Shown here piece after piece: positions 19,418-39,591 of a DNA stretch of 64,000 nucleotides. The DNA comes from Yoonia tamlensis (GTDB lineage: Bacteria; Pseudomonadota; Alphaproteobacteria; Rhodobacterales; Rhodobacteraceae): contig NZ_FOYP01000002.1 in NCBI RefSeq assembly GCF_900115105.1, forward strand, positions 248,001-312,000, in the 5' to 3' direction. The notes under the pieces were generated by a model. It made no database searches and was not told where the DNA came from. It saw nothing but the letters and a program-made list of their open reading frames with translations. Both the position numbers and the translations under genes were made by a program. How positions within the stretch are numbered: the stretch's first letter is position 1; every line of letters starts with the position of its first letter.

Positions 19418-19827
19418 CAGATTTTCCTAGACAAGAGTAATGGCAGAGTTGTCTGCGGGTAAAATGCCCTATTTAGTCTAACAAGTCACCATTAACCGAG
19501 TCTTAAACCTTCAAAGTGATTTGTGGCCGCCACGACACAAATAACACCGTGAATCCGCGGTCATCACCGTGTCTTGGGTGCATAGCAACAAAAGTCGGGA
19601 AATTCGGTGCTGCTTTTTCCCAAAATGACGGCAATGTGATTCTTGTGTCGCGGTTCACGAAATCTTTGCCGTTTCGCAACAATAAGCGCCACAATAGCGC
19701 CTGCGCCTTATTGTCCGCTGGACGGATCATGTTTTCATGGATAAACAGCGCCGGAATGGGCTAAATTTCTTACAGCCCGTCTTTCCCGTGGGCGTTCTGC
19801 CCAACCAAAGAATCGGAGATGCAAGCC
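19418..19827. other. Intergenic region between barrel gene and petABC
   Basis: About 410 bases without a convincing gene. Short open frames on both strands here have no domain-like content and no ribosome site. It must contain the divergent promoters of the barrel gene (minus) and petABC (plus). The CtrA-type box is the only clear motif. Confidence 0.6.
19492..19506. promoter_or_regulatory. CtrA-type box (TTAA-N7-TTAA)
   Basis: TTAACCGAGTCTTAA matches the full CtrA consensus TTAA-N7-TTAA. It lies 75 bases upstream of the barrel gene start at 19417 and over 300 bases from petA, so the barrel gene is the likely target. Confidence 0.55.
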
Positions 19828-35383: not shown

Positions 35384-35980
35384 TCAACCTGTGATGAAAC
35401 ATGCTGTCACCGCTGCGACATGTTCTGCACTGTCATCACGGCCAAAACGCGCCACCACGCCGGTTTCCGGCTTCACAAAATAGGTCGATGTCGCATGCGC
35501 GACCAGATAGAAATCCGGATCGCCACCTGCTTCTTTTTCGTAAAATGCCCCATAGGCCTGCGATACAGCAGCAATTTGTTCATGCGAGCCGGTCAACCCG
35601 ATCATCTTGGGATGAAAGTTGCCAACATAGCCGTGCAAAACATCAACCGTATCGCGATCAGGATCGATGGATACAAAAACCGGAGTCGCGCTGATGCCCT
35701 GGTCGGCCAGAATATCTACGGCCGTGGCGTTGCGTGCATTATCAATCGGGCAGACATCCGGGCAAAAGGTGTACCCAAAGTAGATCAAGCTTGGTTCACT
35801 GAAGACATCGCGGTCGGTCACGATCGCACCGGCATCATTGCGCAGCGTGAACGGCCCGCCAATATCGCCACCAACCACGGGGCCACAGGCCGGCGCGGGG
35901 ACAAGCTGCGTGAATGCAAATGTGCCACCGATGACGGCCGCCAGCGTGCCACCCGCAACCGCAGCAACCAATCTGGACAT
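35384..35980 (-). CDS. senC: SCO/SenC/PrrC copper chaperone
   Basis: Membrane-anchored thioredoxin-like protein of 198 residues that helps CuA assembly in cytochrome c oxidase and feeds redox signals to RegB. One N-terminal TM segment (VAAVAGGTLAAVIGGTFAF) is followed by the copper motif CPDVC (Cys73, Cys77) and His162 in VAHATSTYF. AAAGGAAA stands upstream of the ATG. It is divergent from regB (85 bases apart) and precedes regA, the standard alphaproteobacterial order. Confidence 0.94.
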   Translation of the reverse strand: MSRLVAAVAGGTLAAVIGGTFAFTQLVPAPACGPVVGGDIGGPFTLRNDAGAIVTDRDVFSEPSLIYFGYTFCPDVCPIDNARNATAVDILADQGISATPVFVSIDPDRDTVDVLHGYVGNFHPKMIGLTGSHEQIAAVSQAYGAFYEKEAGGDPDFYLVAHATSTYFVKPETGVVARFGRDDSAEHVAAVTACFITG

Positions 35981-36065
35981 CGCGTTTCCTTTCCGTAATC
36001 GCACATTGATCCCCCATGCGGCGCTGCTTATCAATGATCTACCTTGCCTTACGGGATCGCCGCCA

Positions 36066-37436
36066 ATGTCTGTTTCAGATTTTCGCCTGTTTCAACAACA
36101 GCAACGCAGCAACTGGATACGGCTGCGGACCCTGACATCTTTGCGCTGGGTTGCAACGATGGGGCAGGTCGCCGCAATTATGGTCGCAAGCCTTGTCTAC
36201 GGCGTTCAAATCCATCTTGGGCTTGCCGCTGCAATCATCGGCGTGTCGGTGCTTGCCAATCTTGTGGCCACAGTCGGCTATCCGGAAAATACACGGCTGT
36301 CCGAACGTGGCGCGTCGCTATGGCTGGTGTTTGACCTCATACAACTGGGGCTTTTGCTTGGGATTGCGGGCGGGCTGAACAACCCGTTTGCGATGCTGAT
36401 GCTTGCACCAGTCACGATTGCAGCCACTGTTTTACATCTGAATACAACCGTTTTGCTGGGGCTGACGGCCATCGCGATTATCACCACAATCAGCCAGCTA
36501 CACATGCCGATTGTGATGTTTGACGGCTCTGAACTGCTATTGCCGATCATATTTCAATTTGGGTTCTGGGCATCGATTGTAATCGGAATCGTGTTTTTGT
36601 CCGTATACGCGCGTCAGGTCACAACCGAAATGCACGCCATGCGCGAGGCCTTGGGCGCTACCCAACTGGCACTTGCGCGCGAACAAAAGCTGACAGATTT
36701 GGGTGGGGTTGTCGCGGCGGCGGCACACGAACTGGGCACGCCCTTGGCAACGATCAAACTTGTCGCGAGCGAAATGAAAGAAGAGCTGGGCGATCACCCC
36801 GATTTATATGAAGATGCGACCCTTATCGGGCAACAGGCCGACCGTTGCCGCGATATCCTGCATTCGATGGGACGGGCCGGCAAAGACGATCTGCTCATAC
36901 GCCACGCTCCGATCGAAGCCATCCTGCGCGAGGCCGCAGAGCCGCATATGGAACGCGGCAAACATGTGCAGTTTCAAATCGACCCATCGCAGGACCAGCC
37001 GACAATCGCGCGGCGGCCCGAAATCATCCACGGGCTTCGCAATCTTATTCAAAATGCGGTCGATTTTGCACAAACAGAGGTGCGCGTCGACGTAACGTGG
37101 ACCGACGTTGCGCTAAATGTGCGCATAGCCGATGACGGGCCGGGATTTCCCGGATCTGTTATCGGGCGGATCGGCGACCCCTATGTGCGGCGCCGGCGAA
37201 ACAACGACGACAGCGCGCGCCCCGGCTATAAGGGTATGGGGCTGGGGCTGTTTATCGCCAAGACGCTTTTGGAACGTTCGGGCGCACAGCTGACATTCGC
37301 CAACAGCCGCAGGGCGGGTCTGGGCGAAGGCGGTGCGGTGATTGATGTCGCTTGGGCGCGCGATGCGCTGCCCAACAGCGGCGATCGGGACAGTGCTCCT
37401 TTGGGCGAAAACCAGCAAAACAGCCCCGAAACCTAG
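36066..37436 (+). CDS. regB: Redox sensor histidine kinase RegB/PrrB
   Basis: Membrane kinase of 456 residues with about six TM helices. The quinone-binding heptapeptide GGLNNPF is at residues 102-108. The phosphorylated His221 is in AAAAHELGTPLATIKLVASE and the redox-active cysteine is Cys261 (ADRCRDILHSM), each four residues below the R. capsulatus numbering (225 and 265). The HATPase part has NLIQNAVDFA and GMGLGLFIAKTLLERSGA. The start at 36066 is supported by the family length. It signals to RegA, encoded divergently beyond senC. Confidence 0.96.
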   Translation: MSVSDFRLFQQQQRSNWIRLRTLTSLRWVATMGQVAAIMVASLVYGVQIHLGLAAAIIGVSVLANLVATVGYPENTRLSERGASLWLVFDLIQLGLLLGIAGGLNNPFAMLMLAPVTIAATVLHLNTTVLLGLTAIAIITTISQLHMPIVMFDGSELLLPIIFQFGFWASIVIGIVFLSVYARQVTTEMHAMREALGATQLALAREQKLTDLGGVVAAAAHELGTPLATIKLVASEMKEELGDHPDLYEDATLIGQQADRCRDILHSMGRAGKDDLLIRHAPIEAILREAAEPHMERGKHVQFQIDPSQDQPTIARRPEIIHGLRNLIQNAVDFAQTEVRVDVTWTDVALNVRIADDGPGFPGSVIGRIGDPYVRRRRNNDDSARPGYKGMGLGLFIAKTLLERSGAQLTFANSRRAGLGEGGAVIDVAWARDALPNSGDRDSAPLGENQQNSPET

Positions 37437-37450
37437 AGCCGGCGCTTGGC

Positions 37451-37465
37451 TTAACCAGCTATTAA
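37451..37465. promoter_or_regulatory. CtrA-type box upstream of DivL-like gene
   Basis: TTAACCAGCTATTAA matches TTAA-N7-TTAA exactly and is followed by C, as in the extended CtrA motif. It lies 49 bases upstream of the PAS-protein start. Confidence 0.6.
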
Positions 37466-37513
37466 CCTCGATTGGCGAAGCTGGTCTCCGGCTAATACTG
37501 AGGGCGCTGGCAT

Positions 37514-39100
37514 ATGTTAATCGGCTACTACCAACTTGCATTTATCGGCTTTGGCGCGGCGCTTTGCCTTGTGCTTGCTTTCATCGCGTGGCGGACCATG
37601 CGACAATCGCGGCAATTGATCGAACACCTTGAAACCGCCAGCAAAGACAGGGCAGTTTTTCTGTTTCAAAACAGTTCATTAATTGACGCCACGCCGCAGG
37701 CCTCTGCGCTACTATCGAATGGTGCAAGCGGGGTATCAGAACTGGAATCGCTGGTGCAACTGCTTGGTCCACATGTGCCAAACCTGCGCCACGTGCTTGA
37801 AAACCCACCCGCAACCAAAACCCGAATCGACGGGGTCAGCGCAGATTCGATCTGGGTCGAAATCTGTGAAACAGGCGGGCGCACGCGGATTACTGTCAAC
37901 GGCGCGGCGGGTCTGGGCGAACCAACAACAATCGCCCAAGACGTGCGCCTGTCCGAACTTGCAATGTTGCGCGACCTTACCCAACACAGCCCGCAATTGA
38001 TCTGGCAAGAAGCCCCCGACGGGCGGCTGATCTGGGCCAATCAGACCTATCTGGCCTTTGCGGACGGCCTTATGCCAACCGATGATCAGGCCCCCAAAAC
38101 ATGGCCCAGTACGTCGATTTTTCCAGCGCTACATGAAACGCTTGGCACGGGCGGGGCCGATGCGCGGCGGCTTTCGGTCAAGCGTGATAACCCGTCAGCG
38201 GAATATTGGTTTGACGTAAAAAGCACAGCATTTGGCGGCGGGTTTTTGTATTACGCCAGCGACGCAAACGGCATTGTCCAAGCTGAACACGAAAGGCAGA
38301 ATTTCAAGCAAACGCTCGGGAAAACATTTGCAGAATTGTCCTGTGGGCTTGCGGTATTCGACAAAAGCCGCCGACTGACCACATTTAACCCTGCGCTTTT
38401 GGATCTGACGGGCATGCCGTTCGAATTCCTCAGCAACCGCCCGTCACTTGATACTGTTCTGGACCGTCTGCGCGAACAACGGATGCTGCCGGAACCCAAG
38501 AACTATACGTCATGGCGCGCGCAATTCAGCGCCGTCGAGGAGGCCGCAAAAAACGGCAGTTACCGCGAAATCTGGGCATTACCGGACGGGCAAACCTTTC
38601 GCGTCACAGGACGCCCGCACCCCGATGGTGCCTTTGCCTTTATGTTCGAAGACATCAGCGCCGAGGTTTCACTTGAACGACGTTTTCGCGCAGATATCGA
38701 AACCAGTCAGGCGGTTCTGGATTCGATGCCTGATGCCATAGCGGTTTTTTCCGCGGCAGGCACATTATTGATTTCAAACCAAGCCTACACAAACCTGTGG
38801 CAGACAAATCCGTCCGTTTACCATGAACAACGGATGCTTCAGACCGAAATAAGGGTCTGGAAAAACCACGCAACCAATGCGCAAATCTGGGCGCGCATAC
38901 GTAATTTTGTGCATCAAACCGGCCCGAGAGACGCATTTTCTGACACGACTTTTCTTGATGATGGCCGCGAACTGCAATGCCACGCCAATGCGATCGCCGC
39001 CGGTAAAACGCTGATCCGGTTCACCACAACCGCCATGGTTAAGCCTGTCATCCAGAAATTGATGATGCATGATCCCGCAATCAGGGCTGGAAAACGCTGA
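37514..39100 (+). CDS. divL: PAS-domain protein, DivL-like, lacking a kinase domain
   Basis: Product of 528 residues with one N-terminal TM helix (YYQLAFIGFGAALCLVLAFI), then a series of PAS-like segments: LAMLRDLTQHSPQLIWQEAP (about 150-170), ELSCGLAVFDKSRRLTTFNP (about 275) and VLDSMPDAIAVFSAAGTLL (about 410). It ends at KLMMHDPAIRAGKR without the DHp and HATPase domains found in Caulobacter DivL. A DivL without kinase part has been described in Rhodobacter. DivL steers CckA and so the CtrA phosphorelay. The exact CtrA box before the gene supports the assignment. Gene order regB-divL-tsaE is typical of the family. Confidence 0.7.
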   Translation: MLIGYYQLAFIGFGAALCLVLAFIAWRTMRQSRQLIEHLETASKDRAVFLFQNSSLIDATPQASALLSNGASGVSELESLVQLLGPHVPNLRHVLENPPATKTRIDGVSADSIWVEICETGGRTRITVNGAAGLGEPTTIAQDVRLSELAMLRDLTQHSPQLIWQEAPDGRLIWANQTYLAFADGLMPTDDQAPKTWPSTSIFPALHETLGTGGADARRLSVKRDNPSAEYWFDVKSTAFGGGFLYYASDANGIVQAEHERQNFKQTLGKTFAELSCGLAVFDKSRRLTTFNPALLDLTGMPFEFLSNRPSLDTVLDRLREQRMLPEPKNYTSWRAQFSAVEEAAKNGSYREIWALPDGQTFRVTGRPHPDGAFAFMFEDISAEVSLERRFRADIETSQAVLDSMPDAIAVFSAAGTLLISNQAYTNLWQTNPSVYHEQRMLQTEIRVWKNHATNAQIWARIRNFVHQTGPRDAFSDTTFLDDGRELQCHANAIAAGKTLIRFTTTAMVKPVIQKLMMHDPAIRAGKR

Positions 39101-39141
39101 TTTGACCTTGCGGACGCGGCCTCAGGCAATAATGTTTCGCA

Positions 39142-39591
39142 ATGATCACCATTGCGCTTACAACTGAAACCGACACCGCTGAACTTGCCGGACGTATCGC
39201 GGGCATTCTCGCGGCTGGCGATACCCTGCTGCTTTCGGGTGAAATCGGTGCGGGCAAATCCGCCTTTGCACGGGCTTTGATCCGCGCCCGGCTTGGCCGG
39301 ATGGAGGATGTGCCTTCGCCCACTTTCACGCTGGTGCAAACCTATGACGATCCGCAAGGCGATATCTGGCACTGTGATCTATACCGGCTGACCCACCCTG
39401 ACGAGGTTTTCGAACTTGGGCTTGACGCGGCATTTGCGACAGCGATCTGCCTGATCGAATGGCCGGACCGGCTTGGCACGGATGCGCCGGCGAACGCGCT
39501 GCGCATGGCGTTTTCGGCGGGCGCGGCGGCGCACAGCGTCACAATTGACGGGCCGCCAGCATGGCTTGACCGACTAAAGGGCCTGCTATGA
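39142..39591 (+). CDS. tsaE: tRNA t6A biosynthesis ATPase
   Basis: ATPase of 149 residues that works with TsaD and TsaB in making threonylcarbamoyladenosine-37 of tRNA. The P-loop is GEIGAGKSAFARAL, and the family blocks VPSPTFTLVQTYD and HCDLYRLTHPDEVFELGLD are present. It overlaps the next gene by four bases, starting the tsaE-amgK-murU-addB-addA chain. Confidence 0.95.
   Translation: MITIALTTETDTAELAGRIAGILAAGDTLLLSGEIGAGKSAFARALIRARLGRMEDVPSPTFTLVQTYDDPQGDIWHCDLYRLTHPDEVFELGLDAAFATAICLIEWPDRLGTDAPANALRMAFSAGAAAHSVTIDGPPAWLDRLKGLL

Follow-up and report, generated by a model that had tools for sequence, protein, structure and literature searches.

A short, kinase-less divL with its own predicted CtrA-activated promoter in Yoonia tamlensis and related bacteria

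We propose that divL of a Rhodobacteraceae-type bacterium, Yoonia tamlensis, has its own CtrA-activated promoter inside a regB-tsaE gene row and forms a positive feedback loop via CckA; we put the probability of this reading at roughly 85%. DivL sets the balance between the kinase and phosphatase activities of CckA. In the proposed mechanism, phosphorylated CtrA would bind a box beside the -35 region and recruit RNA polymerase, transcription would start about 23-24 nt past the box, and the additional DivL would stimulate CckA, and hence ChpT and CtrA. The loop would be positive because the DivL of R. capsulatus reportedly acts through CckA to promote the phosphorylation of CtrA (PMC9143464). 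The host genome encodes CtrA (NF045991, 423.6 bits) and a ChpT-type protein (PF10090).

The PAS protein and its locus

The window, i.e., the whole 64-kb stretch of Y. tamlensis DNA that was analysed, contains the following genes and protein parts:

35838..37436, + strand: regB, redox sensor histidine kinase, the upstream neighbour; start codon uncertain (NF045988, 698 bits, over the cut-off)
37514..39100, + strand: divL, 528 aa, an N-terminal helix and four PAS modules with no DHp or CA (ORF, Pfam, AlphaFold2)
37517..37639, + strand: N-terminal helix, residues 2-42, a probable membrane anchor (model)
38342..38653, + strand: third PAS module (residues 277-380), where the protein is most conserved (PAS_7; Pfam, profile, model)
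38735..39031, + strand: fourth PAS module, residues 408-506, with the protein end 22 residues later (model)
39142..39591, + strand: tsaE, the downstream neighbour (PF02367, E 1.1e-32)

A preliminary description of this DNA had held that the PAS protein is DivL-like and that it stops before any kinase domain, and our analysis bears out both statements. In the 528-aa protein, Pfam recognizes only PAS domains (PAS_7, PAS_8 and PAS_4 above the cut-off), with no HisKA or HATPase_c at E values up to 1. Profiles of the DivL DHp (E = 1.1) and of the DivL CA likewise gave no match. The AlphaFold2 model (mean pLDDT 80.5, pTM 0.37) predicts PAS modules at residues 46-129, 162-250, 277-380 and 408-506, followed by a short tail. 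When this model was searched with Foldseek, the best matches were multi-PAS proteins (DosP, PpsR and FixL), which confirms the predicted PAS folds, but not the DivL identity as such; direct comparison of the short protein with the PDB gave no useful match (best E 0.24). Given its hydrophobic N-terminal helix, the protein is probably located in the membrane.

The identification as DivL draws on the locus, a profile search and a longer relative. An orthologue is present in 136 of 149 family genomes, with no homologue in the other 13 at E 1e-10, and no second DivL copy was found in the host genome at E 0.001. One locus was fetched for each of these 136 genomes; in G095, pieces of divL lie on two contigs, one of which was fetched. 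In three loci (L116, L146 and L147), divL is in broken frames. A family profile built from 26 members was searched against 192 genomes of the class and matched 114 of them, 111 outside the family (E <= 1e-20). We examined 40 of these 111, drawn from the best-scoring. The DHp motif is present in 39 of the 40 homologues, with Tyr as the acceptor residue in 36, Phe in 2 and His in 1; Tyr in place of the phospho-accepting His is a published mark of DivL (PMC4211667). L140, a long relative encoded at a divL locus of the family, matches 4q20, 'Sensor protein DivL', better than any other PDB entry (E 2.7e-18); L142, which has a degenerate tail, has no PDB match. Judged by its locus, by a profile that reaches Tyr pseudokinases and by the long relative that matches 4q20, the window protein is a DivL orthologue. 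As its predicted sequence ends without the C-terminal DHp-CA pseudokinase, it is a short DivL and not a full-length one.

The regB and divL genes are separated by 77 nt on the same strand. Among the 136 family loci, tsaE is downstream on the same strand in 123, and the order regB-divL-tsaE is kept in 108. It might be supposed that the PAS protein is mainly a redox partner of RegB/RegA and that its link to CtrA is secondary, in which case divL would be read together with regB and the PAS modules would pass the redox state to CckA. Indeed, regB lies within 300 nt on the same strand in 119 of the 136 loci, the kinase-bearing basal ones included, and in R. capsulatus the loss of regA is reported to lower the CtrA regulon strongly and FnrL to bind next to divL (PMC7232146). 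However, among the 40 homologues examined outside the family, none has regB nearby on the same strand (tsaE is nearby on the same strand in 13), so the link to regB is a family-level neighbourhood. Moreover, divL has a conserved promoter of its own, as set out below. We consider a primarily redox role improbable, and favour a CtrA-activated promoter for divL; read-through from regB could also transcribe the gene. Separately, redox signals might enter the CtrA relay by way of the regB-divL-tsaE row (35838-39591 of the window).

The CtrA box and the promoter before divL

An exact TTAA-N7-TTAA had previously been noted 49 bases upstream of the PAS gene. We find it at 37451-37465, where 48 nt lie between the box and the divL ATG at 37514 (49 by subtraction). 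The promoter elements are as follows:

37451..37465, + strand: CtrA box TTAA-N7-TTAA, TTAACCAGCTATTAA (exact match; conserved exactly before 108 of 134 orthologues)
37466..37467, + strand: CC after the second half-site, i.e., TTAACC (fraction with C among 108 aligned boxes: 0.82 and 0.69)
37477..37482, + strand: -10-like element GAAGCT (alignment; its A at 37478/37479 is the counterpart of the -11 A in promoters activated by CtrA)
37489..37490, + strand: position where transcription is predicted to begin, 23-24 nt past the box (R. sphaeroides spacing rule, PMC6180460, applied to the window)
37500..37504, + strand: Shine-Dalgarno-like GAGGG, 9 nt 5' of the ATG (read from the sequence)

In the CtrA-activated fla2 promoters of R. 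sphaeroides, transcription is described as starting 23-24 nt past the CtrA site, which lies near -35, and in five fla2 promoters the bases at -11 (A) and -4 (G) are invariant (PMC6180460). The window has the full TTAA-N7-TTAA site, its predicted placement near -35 and the -11 A; unlike the R. sphaeroides promoters, it has T or C rather than G at -4. In alignments of divL promoters, the strongest bases 3' of the box are the CC and then an A that is 13 positions past the box end. With the window left out, 107 loci remain. The fraction with A at alignment position 27 is 0.65 (background 0.24), and it rises to 0.96 when an A at either 27 or 28 counts, i.e., when a spacing of either 23 or 24 nt is allowed. 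This conserved -11 A, placed as in the CtrA-activated promoters of R. sphaeroides, argues for activation of divL. We also considered whether the box might be aimed at regB or at an antisense transcript. This idea was rejected because the conserved CC and the -10-like bases occur on the divL side only, with no comparable conservation on the regB side of the 108 aligned boxes.

A functional box could in principle serve repression, such that CtrA would exert negative feedback on divL; CtrA can repress, and its repressing sites in C. crescentus are reported to overlap the -10 region (PMC6180460). However, the box before divL is upstream of the conserved -11 A, which is an activator position, and divL transcripts drop, rather than rise, in published ctrA mutants of relatives. 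Specifically, mutation of ctrA, chpT or cckA in D. shibae, whose divL promoter has a CtrA site, is reported to reduce divL (Dshi_3433) expression (PMC4046655), the divL transcript is reported as lowered in R. capsulatus ctrA knockouts (PMC6363796), and divL1 as repressed in ctrA and cckA mutants of P. inhibens (PMC12363192). Because of the box position and these mutants, we regard repression as very unlikely. CtrA most likely activates divL, although in Y. tamlensis itself we infer both the binding and its direction.

A single exact box in 64 kb, taken alone, is weak evidence. The window has 2 exact boxes where 0.33 are expected, and 2 were reached in 4 of 100 shuffles. Conservation upstream of the orthologues, which the preliminary description had named as a check, is far beyond chance. 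An exact box is located within 200 nt upstream of divL in 108 of 134 family loci (L104 and L121, of the 136, have less than 200 nt upstream and were excluded), and the median distance from box to start is 49.5 nt. At control spacings of 3-6 and 8-12, the corresponding matches were found in 0-3 of the 134 loci. Exact boxes occurred in 0 of 131 control regions comprising the 200 nt after divL, in 0 of 965 windows inside divL and in 2 of 657 windows further upstream in the regB region, and 100 first-order shuffles gave a mean of 0.32 boxes and a maximum of 3. When one mismatch was allowed, the box was found in 119 of 134 loci, versus 9-38 at spacings 4-6 and 8-10. If up to 300 nt upstream are considered in all 136 loci, the box is exact in 109, has one mismatch in 11 and has two or more in 16. 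The exact box is absent in 26 of the 134 loci, and 15 of the 134 lack even a one-mismatch box; these counts treat the broken loci L116, L128 and L146, which have a box just after regB, as missing it, since their open frame starts late. A chance match in an AT-rich gap, which the 4 shuffles in 100 would allow for the window by itself, has a negligible probability because the box is conserved across orthologous gaps. As a prediction, the earlier suggestion that CtrA feeds back on divL is thus well supported.

The host genome (3.19 Mb) contains 25 exact boxes, to which we applied a promoter score built from the divL promoters of other genomes. The window box scores 8.8, the top of the 25 in either direction (99% of random flanks: 3.2). 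Seven of the 24 others are also above the 99% random-flank level (L153, L154, L157, L159, L007, L010 and L012). ORFs downstream of high-scoring boxes include those for a glycosyltransferase (L154), a sugar transferase (L157) and an SLBB polysaccharide export protein (L007), and on account of these polysaccharide-type ORFs, CtrA may drive a polysaccharide in Y. tamlensis. The second box of the window (19492-19506; L004) is 75 nt upstream of a minus-strand ORF for a beta-barrel outer-membrane protein, and another host box (L015) likewise precedes such an ORF. The ORF of a LuxI-type autoinducer synthase (L160:841-1497) is preceded, at about 63 nt, by an exact box. This would fit the control that CtrA exerts on quorum sensing in D. 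shibae, but the flank of this box scores low. At L016, a pair of exact boxes with 37 nt between them precedes the ORF of a PAS_5 (PF07310) protein. Before ctrA, the half-sites TTAACC and TTAA occur, not at N7 spacing.

Loss of the DHp and gain of the box

The DHp-CA part of DivL has been described as a sensor of DivK~P (PMC4211667). Without a DHp, a short DivL would be unable to receive DivK~P input through the DHp surface, so its likely controls would be its amount, as set by CtrA, and signals to its PAS modules.

We compared the distribution of DHp with that of the box. A DHp profile built from 39 outside-family proteins detects DHp in 6 of the 136 family loci; a HisKA match is kept in six family loci, L140 among them. 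The exact box is in none of the 6 with DHp, versus 109 of the 130 DHp-less loci, and it is in 2 of the 40 outside-family loci. In a second, named set of 25 loci (5 of which are the same as family loci by contig), the box is present in 20, and it is absent from the DHp-bearing L205 and from Albimonas L206.

The acceptor residue in the six DHp-bearing family members is His in 3, Tyr in 1 (L149) and Thr in 1 (L151), and the motif is degenerate in 1. The His residues are in the basal DivLs L139, L140 and L145 (ISHRLRTPL, ISHQMRTPL), where DivL elsewhere has Tyr. It is possible that they reflect a return from tyrosine to histidine or an older state.

A tree was made from 80 chosen rows, which included all DHp-bearing ones and 15 boxless rows picked on purpose. 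The DHp-bearing family members branch off successively, and all DHp-less members fall together (SH-aLRT 97). The tree requires one change of the DHp label and 18 of the box label, which, on a tree enriched for boxless rows, suggests that the box was often lost or weakened. Placing the seven DHp-bearing family rows in one clade was rejected (p-AU 0.010), but this test is weaker than its p value suggests because it was made after seeing the tree. Some members are DHp-less but long, among them L207, L213 (Oceanicella), L217, L229 (Pontivivens) and L210 (Amaricoccus). In these, the box is already present and a match to the DivL CA profile persists (E 3e-12 to 1.1e-4), which points to box gain and DHp loss on one branch and later loss of the rest of the kinase.

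The loss of DHp and the gain of the box thus appear to coincide on one branch, although one branch cannot prove cause. We tentatively suggest, at somewhat less than even odds, that the control of DivL was swapped: the DHp surface that reads DivK~P would have decayed and the CtrA box arisen on one branch, basal to most Rhodobacteraceae, with the CA remnant and then the whole C-terminal half lost afterwards. If this is true, transcriptional feedback took the place of a post-translational input. The basal genera Albimonas, Amaricoccus, Oceanicella, Rubricella and Monaibacterium offer a series of intermediates in the dismantling of a pseudokinase during the rewiring of its pathway. In a limited literature search, we found no statement of the order in which box gain and DHp loss come first and truncation later, which does not prove that none exists.

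Comparison with known systems

Caulobacter crescentus DivL resembles the window protein in its N-terminal helix and in its PAS starts, which in published constructs are at 152, 281 and 411 (PMC4211667), versus 162, 277 and 408 here. However, it keeps a DHp-CA region (523-769), in which Tyr550 senses DivK~P (PMC4211667), and the window protein stops there. With DHp starting at 523 in Caulobacter and the window protein ending at 528, the window protein amounts to a DivL that is cut at the joint between PAS and DHp. The distribution of short and long DivL forms was charted in a 2022 study, which places degenerate versions of the long form close to Oceanicella and Albimonas (PMC9430884).

Closer relatives can be compared by description. 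DivL of R. capsulatus (rcc00042) is similarly PAS-only and upstream of CckA (PMC9143464, PMC6473078); one recognised PAS domain is reported there (PMC6473078), whereas four PAS modules are modelled here. D. shibae DivL (Dshi_3433) has a CtrA site in its promoter, as here, with experimental support in that organism (PMC4046655).

The most similar system is that of Brilli et al. (2010), who describe a cluster B of Rhodobacterales without DivJ-PleC-DivK, in which CtrA controls CckA and DivL, and DivL has no kinase domain (PMC2877005). The missing kinase domain and the predicted CtrA control of divL are shared with our case, and the DivK system is absent in that cluster (PMC2877005). Nothing essential differs, except that the site is followed here base by base over 134 loci and together with a promoter layout. 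A kinase-less divL under predicted CtrA control is therefore of a known kind, already proposed in 2010 for Rhodobacterales (PMC2877005). Our analysis adds breadth across the family, the promoter architecture and an order of events. Because the core idea is already in print, this gain is a refinement and not a discovery, and the conservation map marks out the feedback loop as a strong candidate for testing by a simple promoter assay.
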